38,690 bases of DNA from Chloroherpetonaceae bacterium (GTDB lineage Bacteria; Bacteroidota; Chlorobiia; Chlorobiales; Chloroherpetonaceae): assembly GCA_028277445.1 (NCBI GenBank), contig JANQGG010000048.1, forward strand, positions 1 to 38,690, in the 5' to 3' direction. The first letter of the stretch is position 1, and each line of letters opens with the position of its first letter. Positions 17,315 to 34,574 of the stretch are shown here, piece by piece. The notes below the pieces were generated by a model that saw only the letters and a program-made list of their open reading frames with translations, made no database searches and was not told the origin of the DNA. The position numbers and the translations under genes were made by a program.

Positions 17315-19228
17315 CTACTCCCTGTACCTGACGTGCTTATCTATAAATTGTGTAATCGTTGAAAACACCGTTTCTTTTGTTTTTGGTTTTGCTAAATTTT
17401 TTTCATTCAAGAATTCGGTTTCTACCAAGCCGCCATTTTTCTTAACAATCTTTATATAATTGTTCATGGATTTTTCCTTTTCCTCACCGAGTTGGGTTTG
17501 ATCATAAATCATCAGCAATGGCCGATACAGGCTATCGGCAGCAAATTGGGGTGAGATCGACCTTAAAAAATCACCATCTATTTCCGGATCGCCATATTCA
17601 TGATGAAGTATTTTGCTCAGATGAGGTTTTCCCGTCTTTAGCATTGCACGAAGATCCATATAGCCGTTAATGCTAATGGCCGCGGCCCACGAGCCCGAAT
17701 CCGACGAAGCAACATGATGCGAAAGAAAACCGCCGTACTCACACCCCAGGGCAACAATTTTACCTGGATCGGCTAATCCTGATTGAGCCACCCAATCTGC
17801 TGCTTTTATAGCATCATGAATTGCGATGAGTCTTTTTTTCCCGTTATCAGCATTTAAATACGCTTCTCCATAACCGGCAGACCCTCGAATTGCCGGCACT
17901 AAAACCGCAAAATTCTGGGAAATTAAATATTGGATCAAGGGTTTAAATTCCTTTTTCAAGCCGCTTGAAGGATTGCTCTGAAAAATAACCACCATCGTTA
18001 AGCTGCTATCCACTTTTGAGCCTTTCGGCATAAAAAGCAACCCTGGGATTTCTGCTCTATCAAACGAGATATAGCTCATTGTTTGGGGCTTGACAAAATC
18101 CTTCGCCGATAAACCGGCCAAATTAAATCGACTGATAGCTGTTTGTTTTTTGGTTTTCGGATCAAACAAAACGGTTTGTGAGGGATTGGTAGCATTTGAA
18201 TACGTCAGAATAAACGTTTGACTATCCGCTGTAAAACCAACTTTAACCAAATCGTGGGCGTCTTCAATTTCTATGTTTCGGCGTGTTTTTAGATTCTGGA
18301 TCACCGTATGATAATTCCCATCATCCAAAAGCGAATATGTGAAATACTTGCCATCATTGGACAAATTAAAATTGGTTAAACATGCATCGCCAAGATCAAT
18401 CGGACTTAATTTCCCTCTAACGATCTTTCGTCGCCGTTTCACCAATGTCATTAACGCCAAAGTTTTTTGATCACGTTTATAGGTTGTTGCGGTGTAAAAA
18501 CCTTTGCCATCGGGCGTCCAGTTGCCGCCTTCGTAACGGGCTGCAACTTTTTTATTGGTTAATTGTATTTGCTTAAGCGTTTTGGCATTAACTAAAAACA
18601 AGTGATTGGAAATCTGTGGATTCCCTTTTGAGATCAAAACATAACTGCCTTTTGGTGAAAAACTGATGGGTTCTATTTGTTGATTTTCTGCGGCGATAAG
18701 CGTGTGCTTCAGGGTTTTCAAATTTATGAGATACGCATCAAGAACATTTGGTTCACGCTTATTTGAAGCATAGGCCAAAAATGCCCCGTCTCTGGAAAAT
18801 GCTTTTAAAATAAACGTGGCATTGGGATTATCCGAAAGCGCTTTTAAATGGTAACCAAAACGATCTAATTTGTATAACTCATCATTACCGAGATCATTAC
18901 GAACCGTGATAACAAGCTCGGTTGATTTTGGGATCCATTTCATATCCACCACATCCTGATCAAAAAAAGTGATCTGGCTCGGAAACGGATTCTGGATATC
19001 ATAAACCCAAACTTCGTTTTTGCCGGTGATATTCCACAAAAATGCCACATAATTGCCATCATCTGAAATTTCAGAAGCATGCGTTTGCTGAATTAATGAA
19101 AATTGCCGGGCGAGATTTGGTTTATCGTTAGCATTGCTCTTTTGGGGAATACATACCAGTAATGTGCACACCGTTAGGTAAAACCAACATGCGGTTCTTA
19201 AACGTGGTAAGCCTGGTTTTTGACTCAT
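17315..19228 (-). CDS. Prolyl-oligopeptidase-like (S9) protein lacking the catalytic triad
   Basis: The 637-residue protein has a signal peptide (about 1-34), an N-terminal beta-propeller of TolB/WD40-like repeats (about 40-375) and a C-terminal alpha/beta-hydrolase domain of the S9 family (about 390-637). The fold marks are clear: VLVPAIRGSAGYGEAYLNAD, IHDAIKAADWVAQSG and AAAISINGYMDL. The nucleophile motif G-x-S-x-G-G reads GCEYGG (495-500), with Glu497 in place of Ser. The Asp region reads MIYDQTQLGEEKEKS instead of HGxxDxxV, and the GHGF region of the catalytic His reads NEKNL. All three catalytic positions are thus altered, so it is probably a non-enzymatic binding or scaffold protein outside the cytoplasm. 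The reading frame is intact. Confidence 0.85.
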   Translation of the reverse strand: MSQKPGLPRLRTACWFYLTVCTLLVCIPQKSNANDKPNLARQFSLIQQTHASEISDDGNYVAFLWNITGKNEVWVYDIQNPFPSQITFFDQDVVDMKWIPKSTELVITVRNDLGNDELYKLDRFGYHLKALSDNPNATFILKAFSRDGAFLAYASNKREPNVLDAYLINLKTLKHTLIAAENQQIEPISFSPKGSYVLISKGNPQISNHLFLVNAKTLKQIQLTNKKVAARYEGGNWTPDGKGFYTATTYKRDQKTLALMTLVKRRRKIVRGKLSPIDLGDACLTNFNLSNDGKYFTYSLLDDGNYHTVIQNLKTRRNIEIEDAHDLVKVGFTADSQTFILTYSNATNPSQTVLFDPKTKKQTAISRFNLAGLSAKDFVKPQTMSYISFDRAEIPGLLFMPKGSKVDSSLTMVVIFQSNPSSGLKKEFKPLIQYLISQNFAVLVPAIRGSAGYGEAYLNADNGKKRLIAIHDAIKAADWVAQSGLADPGKIVALGCEYGGFLSHHVASSDSGSWAAAISINGYMDLRAMLKTGKPHLSKILHHEYGDPEIDGDFLRSISPQFAADSLYRPLLMIYDQTQLGEEKEKSMNNYIKIVKKNGGLVETEFLNEKNLAKPKTKETVFSTITQFIDKHVRYRE

Positions 19229-19254: not shown

Positions 19255-19285
19255 ATAAATAAAATCCTCTCAAAATTGAGAGGAT
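19255..19285 (-). terminator. Terminator of the Gld-like transporter operon
   Basis: ATCCTCTC (19264-19271) pairs with GAGAGGAT (19278-19285). On the minus strand it is followed by TTTATTT, and it lies 55 bases after the DUF4340 gene. Confidence 0.75.
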
Positions 19286-20699: not shown

Positions 20700-23366
20700 T
20701 TAATTACTTTTGCGACGGCGTGAAAGCGCCATGCCCTCTTTTTCACGTTTTTTACGACGGATATAAATCCAGATTCCCATACCAAAAACAGGAACCGGCG
20801 GCAGCAATACCGCCATAAGTTTTATGCTGCTTTGAATGGCTCGAATCTTTGCTTGCATATCCTGAAGGCTTTGCTCAATCTTTGATTTCTTTTCGGCTTC
20901 GATTTGCGTTTTTATGGCCTCAAATTTGTTGGACTCAACTTCCTGAATGTTTCGCGCCATCATGTTTTTACTTTGTTCATCCAGATCCGTTCGTTCCGAT
21001 ATTGCCTGCACTTTTTTATTTAACCGAGCCTGCGCCTCATTTAATGCTTGCTGAGCTTCCGCTTCGGCTTGTTTTTCATCGTTTCGTCGTTGTTTTGCAA
21101 AACGAAACATCTGCGTTTCCAATGCCTTTAATGTCCGATGCTGCGTGCGTTTTTTCCTGAGTTCAATAAACGACTTATCACCAACCAGGTAATCCATACA
21201 ATTGAGGAAAAATGAGACATTATCAAAATTCAGGTTTTGATAACCGGCTTTGCGGATTTCAAAAAATTGACCGGAAATAAAATCAATATCAGCAACCGCA
21301 ATCACATTTATTGACGCGCTATCTTTGGCAACCTTTTCTTCAGAATCCGATATGTGTGCGGCCATTGTGTATTGAACGCCGGTAGGTTGATGAGCAACAT
21401 ATTGGCTGGGAAGAATCTGCGTGCCGAAAAAGCTTCGCTGAACCATTTGGTTGTAACTGACCCGGCCGGTTACATTACCGGTTTGTAATAACGGCGTGAA
21501 TTTGTAGCTAACCGTCGGCGATTCTTCAAAAAATCCCGGATAGAGCAATACAACTTCCTGCAAACCGCTGGTTGATTCAAATTCAGTATTAAACGCCTTT
21601 GGATTTTTATTTCCCTCGCCAACAAAAACAACTTCAGGCGGTAGAGCAGCCAGTTGAGGATGAGGATTGTAACCATCCCATACGATTTCTGACGGCATCC
21701 AATGCACGCCAATATCATTCATGAATTTGGAAATGTTTCCTTTCGGTTTTGGCTGCGGCCCGCGGCTTCGCATCATTGGATTTACATCAGCACCGGATTT
21801 TTCCATCGGCGAAAGCGCTACTTTTTCCATGAGCAACGGATCACTAAGCACCAGAGTTGGCATACCATTTTTTATAGCCTGAAGCGCATTATTCATTTCA
21901 TTTTGAGATAATGCCGAAGGCAATACCACAAGCATCCCATCCAATTCCTCCGTGATTGGAACATCGGCGGAGATTTCAATGACTTCGAACTGCTTTTTTA
22001 ATTCACTGACCACCTGCCATTCGGGCAAGGTTTGAAAGGTTTCGTAATTTAATCCGCCAAAAATGTTTGCCGCTGTTTTCAGCACCCCGATTTTTTTCCG
22101 GCTCGACTCCGAAACAACCCGTATGCTTCGGATCAGTTCATATTCAACCGGCAATCCGGGATCAAAAAACTTAATGACATGCTCTTTTGCGCCGGATGTG
22201 AAGGCCAATCCCATAAACATCTGTTTGCTGGAGGTTTGCATGCCTGCAATGCCCATTGTTTCAATCGGCGCGATATTGTAATGCTTATTGGCATGTCTGG
22301 CTTCCTGGCTATAGGGTTCGGTGTCAATAATCCGAACCTGAACATTCCCTCCCGAAACTGCCTGGATTTCTTTTAAAAATCCAATAATATTGGTTCGGGT
22401 TTGAACCATTGACTGCGGGACATTCGGACTCAGGTAAGCATGAACAACTACGGGGGTTTTTGTATCCAGTTCGCTTAGAATAGTTTTGGTTTCATCAGAC
22501 AGAGAATGCAAACCTTCGGCAGTGACATCGGCTCTGAGATCAAAACTGTTAAAAATGACATTTAAACTGCTGATTGAAAGAAACAATGCCGCAAACCGAA
22601 TGGCGAAATGCTTTGGATAGGTTAAACCATCAGCTGCTTTCGGCCAGTGACGGCGGCCTAACAAAACCGTATTTAAATACAAGCCTAACAGCGCAATCGA
22701 TACAAAGTAAAATAGCCCTGAAAAACTTAAGACACCCCGCGAAAAATCTTCAAAATATCGCCACATGCCAATGTCATAAAAAAACCGGCCGGTATCGGCG
22801 CCAAAAATGCTCATCAATACATCTAAATACACCAATGCGCCTACGAACAAAATGCCCAATACAAAGGCAATCGTGGCATTGGGCGTTAACTGAGAAGCCA
22901 CTATCCCAAACGCAATCAAGGCCGCGCCCATTAAAAAGTAGCCCATGTAATTGGCAAACATTAAGCCGATATCGGGGTCGCCTAAAAACATCAGCACCAC
23001 AACATGACTCAGCGAAAGCAACAGCGAAATGCCATAGATGCTTAACACGGAAAGGTATTTGCCCAGCGTGAGTTCGATATCCGATGCCGGCATGGTAAGT
23101 AAAAGCTCATCGGTGCCTTGTTTGCTTTCGCTCGACCATACGGCCATGGTTATTGCCGGAATAAAAAATACCAGCAACAACGGGAACATATCATTTAACT
23201 GGCTTAAGTTGGCCAGGTTATGCAAAAAAAAGCGTTCTTGCCAAAATGCCGCGCCGGCGCTGATAAAAATGAACAGGGTAATAAAAACATACCCGGTTGG
23301 ATTGGTAAAAAACAATTTTAAATCGCGCTTTAATAACGCTTGTATGATCATTGTATTGAGTTTCAT
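20700..23366 (-). CDS. GldF-GldG fusion: ABC-2 permease joined to ABC auxiliary domain
   Basis: The 888-residue protein combines two subunits. Residues 1-240 are an ABC-2 type permease with about six membrane helices, starting with the amphipathic LLKRDLKLFFTNPTGYVFIT typical of GldF. Residues about 250-890 are a GldG/DUF4350-type auxiliary part: a membrane helix, a large extracytoplasmic domain (LRADVTAEGLHSLSDETKTIL, then IGVLKTA and GMLVVLPSAL), a coiled coil (about 745-845) and a final membrane helix followed by a basic tail. In Flavobacteria GldF and GldG are separate and required for gliding. Fused forms occur in other phyla. The ATPase gene is 14 bases upstream. Confidence 0.9.
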   Translation of the reverse strand: MKLNTMIIQALLKRDLKLFFTNPTGYVFITLFIFISAGAAFWQERFFLHNLANLSQLNDMFPLLLVFFIPAITMAVWSSESKQGTDELLLTMPASDIELTLGKYLSVLSIYGISLLLSLSHVVVLMFLGDPDIGLMFANYMGYFLMGAALIAFGIVASQLTPNATIAFVLGILFVGALVYLDVLMSIFGADTGRFFYDIGMWRYFEDFSRGVLSFSGLFYFVSIALLGLYLNTVLLGRRHWPKAADGLTYPKHFAIRFAALFLSISSLNVIFNSFDLRADVTAEGLHSLSDETKTILSELDTKTPVVVHAYLSPNVPQSMVQTRTNIIGFLKEIQAVSGGNVQVRIIDTEPYSQEARHANKHYNIAPIETMGIAGMQTSSKQMFMGLAFTSGAKEHVIKFFDPGLPVEYELIRSIRVVSESSRKKIGVLKTAANIFGGLNYETFQTLPEWQVVSELKKQFEVIEISADVPITEELDGMLVVLPSALSQNEMNNALQAIKNGMPTLVLSDPLLMEKVALSPMEKSGADVNPMMRSRGPQPKPKGNISKFMNDIGVHWMPSEIVWDGYNPHPQLAALPPEVVFVGEGNKNPKAFNTEFESTSGLQEVVLLYPGFFEESPTVSYKFTPLLQTGNVTGRVSYNQMVQRSFFGTQILPSQYVAHQPTGVQYTMAAHISDSEEKVAKDSASINVIAVADIDFISGQFFEIRKAGYQNLNFDNVSFFLNCMDYLVGDKSFIELRKKRTQHRTLKALETQMFRFAKQRRNDEKQAEAEAQQALNEAQARLNKKVQAISERTDLDEQSKNMMARNIQEVESNKFEAIKTQIEAEKKSKIEQSLQDMQAKIRAIQSSIKLMAVLLPPVPVFGMGIWIYIRRKKREKEGMALSRRRKSN

Positions 23367-32678: not shown

Positions 32679-34574
32679 CTAAAGTAAAAAGTTATTTACA
32701 ATTGTATTTGATTCTAGAGAGAGTTCTTGTTTCACAATAGGCAGTTTTTCCATTATAGTCTCAAAAGTATCCTCTGGAAATTTGTCAACAACATAGAGCA
32801 AATTTAATTCAGATACTGCAAAATCGACCTCTCGAGTAATGAATGAGAATATTGATCGAAAACCATTTGACTGCATATTAAATGGCTCAGCGATCATAAC
32901 TTCATTGAAGCTATGTATTCCAATTTTCTTATATATTTTCGTAACCAAATATTCACATTGAGATAGTGATTCAATTTCCTTCACATTGAGTGACAAGAAA
33001 TTGTTGGAATTCCTCCTTTTGACAATTACTTGTAATTCATGAATAGCAATTTGACCAAAAGGAATATAGAGCATAACATTGGAATCTTCCCAAATAACAT
33101 AATGGCGTGATCGCAGAGCCTCCATATAATCTTCCAAGTAATCTATACCGCTTTTATCGTATGAAGCACATATTTCTGAAAGGTGATCACCGATATTAAA
33201 TGCGCCCTTTGCAAATCCCCAAATTTGCTTATGGACATGCTCAATACTTGCGCCTGCTGATGTTCTTGTTTTTTTGCCAAGAACAAGATGTTTAATTGAT
33301 GAATTAAAACCAAAAAGTATTCCCGCTGAGCCATTTAGTTGATTATTGTCATATTCACTTTTTAAGTGTTTAAATATTTGTAAATTCATTTTTAATAAAT
33401 GTTCTTCTTGAACATCCTCCCAAGAATGTACTGGATCATTAGGGAATGTTAAATAGTGAAAAAATGCACCATAAGGAAAATCATTGGCCATAACAGTTGT
33501 ATCGTTCGTAGTTGCAGAATGGATTTTACGATAATATTTAAAATTGGGATTACAGAATTTGCAGTTTTTCTGTTTTAGTTGTTCTGAGGCCGATGGATTT
33601 TTAGCAGCTATTTTCTTTACGAGATCGCTGGGATCATTAGCATGGATATGGTCCACAACAGCAGGTTCGGTTACGAGTTCTGCTAATACCATGCGAATCC
33701 ATTCATCTTCTTGTTCCAAAATGAATGGGTACATTTTCTTAATTTTTTCTAAATTTATTGATTTTAGATGATCTATTGCTTCAGGCTCTCCCTCTGTTCT
33801 CAGATTTCTAGTTAATCCTACTTGTATTTCAAAGGGTCGGACAGGATCCCTTGTTATAAATACTTTATTTTCTAAGGGATTATTTTGAGAATCACGCCCT
33901 GGTGTGGTACCTATTACTAATCGATAAAAGTGAGGTGCGTTTGAGGGGTGAAATGATGAATATTTATTTGTGTTTGGGACATTTAGTTGATCAACATCAT
34001 TAAATTCTAATTCTGCAATTTCTGTTCTTTGGGAGGGTGCAATGGGTGGTAGGGATTCATTGAGTTCGTCTATTGATATAGCAAGATGTTGGCCTACTAA
34101 ATCTGAGAATTCTTCAAGTTCGCTAAAAGTAGCAATTACACCTGCACCTTCTAATTCTTTTTTAAAAGTCAATACTTTATTCATCTGCTCTATTTCCTCA
34201 AACTTTTGAGGCATAAATGGCCTTTGACAGAAATAAAAAAGAATTTTTTTATTGGCTTTATCAGCTTTCCATTCAGAAAAGGCATTCCTAAATTCTTCTT
34301 CAGTACCAGAATCAGCGATGCCTGTTGGTTTGCCGAACCATTTCCACATTATACCAATGAATATATCGAATTGACCAATTTGTTGATTAATCACTTCTTG
34401 GGGCCGGCCCATTCCAGGTACGAATATCTCCCAACCCTTAAATTCAATATAAATATTTCTTCCGCTGTAAACAGAATTCAAATTATCAATTATTTTTTTA
34501 ACTCTCTCTCGCTCCATATCGACGTCATGTGGCGATGCTACGAATATTCTAATTTTTCTCGTATTATTTTCCAT
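32679..34574 (-). CDS. DUF4062-GalT/HIT-like fusion, candidate defence protein
   Basis: The 631-residue protein joins two modules. Residues 1-175 are DUF4062 (IRIFVASPHDVDMERERVKK, WEIFVPGMGRPQEVINQQI, DIFIGIMWKWFGKPTG, GTEEEFRNAF), a TIR/Rossmann-like domain usually attached to STAND NTPases. Residues about 205-610 resemble galactose-1-phosphate uridylyltransferase: CKFC (338-341) like its zinc site, HYLTFPND (373 on), and the active-site motif GASIEHVHKQIW (441-452), matching GCSxPHxHGQ of GalT with His446 and His448. A second HIT-like lobe follows (VMLYIPFGQIAIHELQVIVKR). A strong GGGAGGTG Shine-Dalgarno (34582-34589), seven bases from the ATG, is unlike most genes in the window. It forms a one-gene cassette. 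Nucleotide transfer or hydrolysis is inferred; a defence role is speculation from the DUF4062 and island context. Confidence 0.8.
   Translation of the reverse strand: MENNTRKIRIFVASPHDVDMERERVKKIIDNLNSVYSGRNIYIEFKGWEIFVPGMGRPQEVINQQIGQFDIFIGIMWKWFGKPTGIADSGTEEEFRNAFSEWKADKANKKILFYFCQRPFMPQKFEEIEQMNKVLTFKKELEGAGVIATFSELEEFSDLVGQHLAISIDELNESLPPIAPSQRTEIAELEFNDVDQLNVPNTNKYSSFHPSNAPHFYRLVIGTTPGRDSQNNPLENKVFITRDPVRPFEIQVGLTRNLRTEGEPEAIDHLKSINLEKIKKMYPFILEQEDEWIRMVLAELVTEPAVVDHIHANDPSDLVKKIAAKNPSASEQLKQKNCKFCNPNFKYYRKIHSATTNDTTVMANDFPYGAFFHYLTFPNDPVHSWEDVQEEHLLKMNLQIFKHLKSEYDNNQLNGSAGILFGFNSSIKHLVLGKKTRTSAGASIEHVHKQIWGFAKGAFNIGDHLSEICASYDKSGIDYLEDYMEALRSRHYVIWEDSNVMLYIPFGQIAIHELQVIVKRRNSNNFLSLNVKEIESLSQCEYLVTKIYKKIGIHSFNEVMIAEPFNMQSNGFRSIFSFITREVDFAVSELNLLYVVDKFPEDTFETIMEKLPIVKQELSLESNTIVNNFLL

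Follow-up and report, generated by a model that had tools for sequence, protein, structure and literature searches.

A putative S9C-type pseudopeptidase of the Chloroherpetonaceae that lacks its active-site motifs and is best conserved in the propeller

The locus and its protein

The analysed stretch of DNA (hereafter the window) is a contig of 38,690 nucleotides from a Chloroherpetonaceae bacterium. Its reverse strand carries an open reading frame that starts with ATG, has no internal stop codon and encodes a putative S9C-type pseudopeptidase (Table 1). Upstream on the same strand lie genes for a GldA-like protein, a fused GldF/GldG and a DUF4340 protein. The Pfam model Peptidase_S9 (PF00326) matched residues 428-574 (E = 6.5e-20, 72 bits against a gathering score of 22.6), which assigns the protein to this family, and gave 75.1 bits with the orthologue described below. 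By sequence, the closest relative in the PDB is 5l8s, named amino acyl peptidase there, which aligns with residues 36-633 (E = 4.6e-37). The labels S9A and S9C are used as we understand them, on the basis of motifs and nearest matches.

Table 1. Positions of the pseudopeptidase gene and its features in the window
Feature	Position	Strand	Remarks
S9C-type pseudopeptidase gene (putative)	17315..19228	-	637 aa
Hydrophobic N-terminus, signal-peptide-like	19127..19228	-	residues 1-34; by sequence reading alone
Beta-propeller	18104..19111	-	residues 40-375; 49% identical to the orthologue
Lengthened basic hairpin, fifth blade	18389..18463	-	residues 256-280, TLALMTLVKRRRKIVRGKLSPIDLG; 80% identical in the orthologue
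Alpha/beta hydrolase domain	17318..18103	-	residues 376-637
Lost HGGP motif, now QSNP	17969..17980	-	residues 417-420; from the alignment
Nucleophile elbow GCEYGG	17729..17746	-	residues 495-500; Ser to Glu497, Gly to Cys496
C-terminal part, apparently nearly relaxed	17318..17638	-	residues 531-637; 23-24% identity; holds the lost Asp and His segments
Lost Asp segment	17474..17512	-	residues 573-585; Gln579 in the Asp column
Lost His segment	17384..17413	-	residues 606-615; two-residue in-frame gap at GH of EGHG
Terminator-like hairpin	19264..19285	-	9 pairs and T-rich tail; between the DUF4340 and pseudopeptidase genes; consensus match

A beta-propeller followed by an alpha/beta hydrolase domain was recovered from S9-chain matches (residues 47-637) and from the strand and helix pattern of an AlphaFold2 model, which was computed from a three-row alignment and is weak (pLDDT 63.3, pTM 0.44). 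In Foldseek and VIA-align comparisons the model came closest to S9 chains, headed by 5l8s (E = 1.1e-34; Z = 26.9 over 533 residues, with an rmsd of 18.1); the rmsd is probably due to a poorly predicted domain orientation. Since the model is weak and the rmsd high, we make no claim on the geometry of pocket or active site. The propeller boundaries were set by us, and the count of seven blades was made by eye on the strands of the same weak model. The NCBIfam TolB model also matched the propeller (residues 54-270, 2e-12), but its 46.8 bits lie far under the cut-off of 343.15, so the protein does not qualify as a TolB member, and it differs from TolB-type propellers in having the additional hydrolase domain.

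Both the protein and its orthologue have hydrophobic N-termini (11-residue hydropathy maximum 2.42 and 2.03, respectively), as do the active homologues L041, L064 and L042. Export would thus likely be an inherited trait.

Loss of the active-site motifs

We aligned 41 sequences, namely the window protein, 38 other S9C-type and two S9A-type proteins, and call a protein active if it is motif-complete by sequence. Matches without a locus (G101 C19 and many weaker ones) were left out. With the two S9A-type rows set aside, each of four active-site motifs was found in 37/37 other S9C-type rows, so the loss in the window protein is not a matter of chance; among the 39 S9C-type proteins, window included, only the window protein and its one clear orthologue are motif-less. 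At the elbow the actives read GGSYGG or GGSFGG, whereas the window protein has GCEYGG and lacks the Ser nucleophile of GxSxGG. The Asp segment of the actives follows G-x-x-D-P-R-V (D-V-R-V or D-Q-R-V in four), whereas the window protein has IYDQTQLGE against IQGANDPRV in its nearest active-looking relative, L003. At the His segment, where actives have EGHG, NEK--NLAK stands against DDEGHGLAK of L003, and the alignment misses two residues in the window protein and four in the orthologue. That is, the segments of the catalytic Asp and His are both replaced or partly deleted. HGGP, which we take to be typical of S9C, is present in the active S9C-type rows but has become QSNP in the window protein and HDGV in the orthologue, and the placement of the window protein beside S9C-type proteins is by phylogeny only. 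The other three sites of the orthologue read GCGYGG, AEKQQAP and ESA----CGQ. From these losses we infer that the protein lacks peptidase activity.

An earlier, sequence-only reading of this DNA had claimed that the Ser, Asp and His positions of the triad are all changed within an intact frame. The 41-sequence alignment bears this out, the frame of the orthologue is intact as well as the 637-residue one in the window, and the HGGP site adds a fourth loss to the three seen before. The accompanying claim of intact fold motifs fails for the C-terminal 107 residues, where identity in the pair is 23-24% and the sequence appears nearly relaxed. Glu497, which had been proposed for comparison among orthologues, is Gly in the one clear orthologue, and we rejected it as a conserved new functional residue.

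Could another set of residues have taken over? The window protein contains 13 His residues and the orthologue nine, and 0/13 of the former align with a His of the latter. This is evidence against a conserved His-based substitute triad, which we rejected; the alternative Ser-His-Asp set named in the sequence-only reading as its possible refutation is disfavoured in such a conserved version. The residue before the nucleophile is not normally turned towards the substrate, which counts against a rival explanation in which the protein is still an enzyme with migrated catalytic residues (for example Cys496 or Glu497). Since no His is common to the pair and HGGP is lost too, a conserved hydrolytic centre appears unlikely, and the Gly at position 497 of the orthologue likewise speaks against migration. 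In its favour, Cys496 beside the old nucleophile is derived (Gly in 37/37 actives), common to the pair and the only Cys conserved in it, and an excerpt of PMC10211241 describes pseudoenzymes of other kinds in which residues have migrated. On balance, we regard continued catalysis by migrated residues as very improbable.

As a separate observation, His 504, 505, 536, 542 and 543 of the window protein lie close in sequence within the dead hydrolase domain; 0/5 are His in the orthologue.

Orthologue and phylogeny

We searched 98 genomes of the class (E up to 1e-25) and a phylum sample of 394 genomes out of a larger group (E up to 1e-40, with at most three candidates scored per genome listed). One clear orthologue was found (44-45% identity, E = 3.5e-173), encoded in a genome of the same family and another genus (G001, one contig of 3,293,456 bases), which we suspect to be Chloroherpeton thalassium. 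Close orthologues with normal triads would have spoken against the sequence-only reading; the one clear orthologue is triad-less too. Among the aligned matches from the class (98) and phylum-sample (394) genomes there was no further triad-less member. A search of a contig collection with two narrow patterns returned one distant S9 match (L037, 18% identity), and viral contigs scanned with both pseudoenzymes gave zero matches. Neither in the window genome nor in G001 did we see an intact S9C-type paralogue with PF00326 in open frames >412 aa, where the sole other match is an oligopeptidase with GGSAGG; a few weak PF00326 matches occur in open frames of 278-412 aa of both genomes.

In the tree, the window protein and its orthologue were grouped with an SH-aLRT of 100, and L003, the nearest active-looking relative (36-37% identity), came next with 97. 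The L003 gene is cut at a contig end, and when its N-terminal half was sought in the same genome (G003), no continuation was recognised. The stem of the pseudoenzymes measures 1.17 changes per column versus 0.44 for the L003 end branch. Since the pair forms one clade beside active-looking L003, a single ancestral loss is the simplest explanation: catalysis would have been lost once, before the two genera split, in the lineage that led to both the window genome and G001, which is the sole further member of the family sampled. Elsewhere in the tree, the active-looking S9C-type homologue L042:1492-3384 has an unusually long end branch (1.31).

Distribution of constraint

The synonymous sites of the two pseudoenzymes are saturated (pS 0.74), so that pairwise dN/dS gave no usable omega and we withhold it. 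We therefore give differences at codon positions 1, 2 and 3 of the pair instead. These amount to 0.43, 0.27 and 0.63 in the propeller and 0.41, 0.27 and 0.59 in residues 376-530, so that both parts look clearly constrained; residues 376-530 are also 51% identical, far above the C-terminal part. In residues 531-637, the values of 0.53, 0.47 and 0.55 suggest a sequence close to relaxed, to which misalignment at 24% identity could add. The protein as a whole evolves faster than GldFG, GldA and the S9A-type oligopeptidase, which share 62-71% identity between these two genomes, versus 44% for the pseudopeptidase.

This fast evolution would suit a pseudogene in decay, as would the four lost motifs, the long stem branch and the nearly relaxed C-terminal part. 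However, the frame is intact in both genera despite saturated synonymous sites, and the codon-position bias is strong in the propeller and residues 376-530. We give decay hardly any credence, the least among the explanations considered.

In active S9C-type pairs the hydrolase domain is generally the better conserved of the two; in the pseudoenzyme pair this is reversed. Identity within the pseudoenzyme pair is 0.49 in the propeller and 0.40 in the hydrolase domain (hydrolase/propeller ratio 0.82). Active pairs at 38-56% overall identity (n = 105) gave ratios of 1.37-2.17, and the minimum over all 630 pairs of 36 actives (L003 left out) was 0.977. Since only two pseudoenzyme sequences were found, the comparison sets one pair against many related pairs; it is telling, short of a formal test. 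Against eight representative actives, the ratios were 1.12-1.69 for the window protein and 0.91-1.71 for the orthologue. That is, the reversal is seen within the pair and much less against actives, and it belongs to evolution inside the pseudoenzyme clade.

These data also bear on the role put forward by the sequence-only reading, peptide binding, which we take to mean binding without cleavage in the former substrate cavity between the domains. In its favour, the two domains are retained in the same order, residues 376-530 are much better conserved than the C-terminal part, and the propeller residues R158 and D164, found in 36/36 active rows that cover them, are retained in both pseudoenzymes. 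But D112, G115 and E117, equally invariant in the actives (36/36), are changed 3/3 in the orthologue and 1/3 in the window protein, and even the two orthologues disagree with each other in the HGGP loop, at the nucleophile and in the Asp and His segments. The best conservation lies on a propeller hairpin instead. The proposal thus keeps some standing, but with the strongest conservation away from the old active site we consider it unlikely.

A basic hairpin on the fifth blade

The best-conserved 25-residue block of the pair comprises residues 256-280 (identity in Table 1); in five active pairs, identity there is 0.05-0.44. Both pseudoenzymes have the pattern LVK-x-RR-x-x-VRGKLSPI-x-LG in this block, and the weak structural model has long strands at 255-265 and 268-276. 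Its net charge is +6 in the window protein and +5 in the orthologue, whereas 36 actives span -4 to +3. In these actives the fifth-blade segment measures 33-39 residues, and in the pseudoenzymes 40. Since two of the actives, L041 and L064, are almost as long (39 residues), charge and conservation are more distinctive than length. The hairpin may serve as a docking surface.

Gene neighbourhood

A further rival explanation makes the protein an accessory of the neighbouring GldA/GldFG/DUF4340 ABC system. The pseudopeptidase gene lies directly downstream of this system on the same strand, and among seven genomes of the order GldFG occurs only in the two that carry the pseudopeptidase, but co-occurrence within one family proves little. 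In G001 the two loci are far apart (GldFG at 0.36 Mb, the pseudopeptidase at 1.94 Mb), and the pseudopeptidase has other neighbours there, namely DUF155, HAD and nitrilase-type genes. In the window, a terminator-like site separates it from the DUF4340 gene; the region holds 14 such sites versus 8.6 in shuffles, so chance matches occur. On the strength of the G001 distance and the intervening site, we rejected an operon with gldFG as the main explanation, and an accessory role in the ABC system appears improbable. Since the neighbourhood is not conserved between the two genomes, the context names no partner.

Three other frames of the window deserve mention. At 20700-23366, a GldF-like permease and a GldG-like auxiliary protein are fused in one ORF of 888 aa (TIGR03518 on residues 9-236 and TIGR03521 on 257-518, both under the curated cut-off), a fusion seen in the window genome and G001 only of the seven order genomes searched. 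The 998-aa product of 10156-13152 matches Pfam only in its C-terminal type IX secretion tail domains. For that of 32679-34574 (631 aa), an N-terminal DUF4062 is the one Pfam match at E up to 0.001.

Discussion

We propose, with a probability of roughly 0.6, that the gene product is an S9C-type pseudopeptidase, exported and triad-less, which has been kept for binding without catalysis in the manner of DPP6 and DPP10, with the binding function borne mainly by the propeller. The sequence-only reading had likewise seen a selectively kept non-catalytic protein, and the triad-less orthologue with its intact frame, the far smaller change at codon position 2 than at 3 over most of the length and the lack of a common His agree with it. 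After the loss of catalysis in the common ancestor with G001, the protein would have been kept for a non-catalytic job that involves mainly the propeller with its basic hairpin and the N-terminal portion of the hydrolase domain. Docking on a partner protein or another ligand is the most likely such job, and the protein would then serve as scaffold or as regulatory subunit.

The S9C acylaminoacyl peptidases, 5l8s and its relatives, have the same two-domain order and are the best match in sequence and structure, but the window protein lacks their nucleophile Ser, Asp, His and HGGP. DPP6 and DPP10 likewise combine a propeller with a dead hydrolase. An excerpt of PMC4350108 reports Ser to Asp in DPP6 and Ser to Gly in DPP10, which Glu in the window protein and Gly in its orthologue resemble, and describes both as acting on potassium channels without catalysis, DPP10 by modulating voltage-gated ones. 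The features of this type, a dead nucleophile position, a kept fold and selection, were all found here at the level of sequence. The acidic/Gly parallel is striking and presumably of independent origin: DPP6 and DPP10 are S9B, animal, single-pass membrane proteins, unlike the window protein, and DPP10 keeps His and Asp in place (same excerpt of PMC4350108), whereas the window protein has lost both and HGGP. More tentatively, and with more doubt than confidence, we suggest that an S9C peptidase was converted into a periplasmic docking protein within one family, with catalysis and the HGGP site discarded and the basic fifth-blade hairpin most constrained; this would parallel, in bacteria and with a new partner, the conversion seen in DPP6/DPP10.

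Pseudoenzymes occur widely, and animals provide documented examples from S9, namely DPP6 and DPP10. Among the open-access literature matches listed, we found no account of a comparable S9 pseudopeptidase from bacteria. Bacterial prolyl oligopeptidases, an S9 branch neighbouring S9C, have been surveyed and, as far as an excerpt goes, showed high triad conservation in all subtypes (PMC4522959). A bacterial S9C-type protein without any active-site motif and with reversed conservation would add a clean example to the S9 enzymes that became binding proteins. A simple analogy with the animal proteins is weakened by fly DPP10, which is reported to digest peptides (PMC4873792, excerpt): in the DPP family, serving as a channel subunit need not preclude activity. 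For members such as the one described here, automatic labels like 'S9 family peptidase' can mislead.
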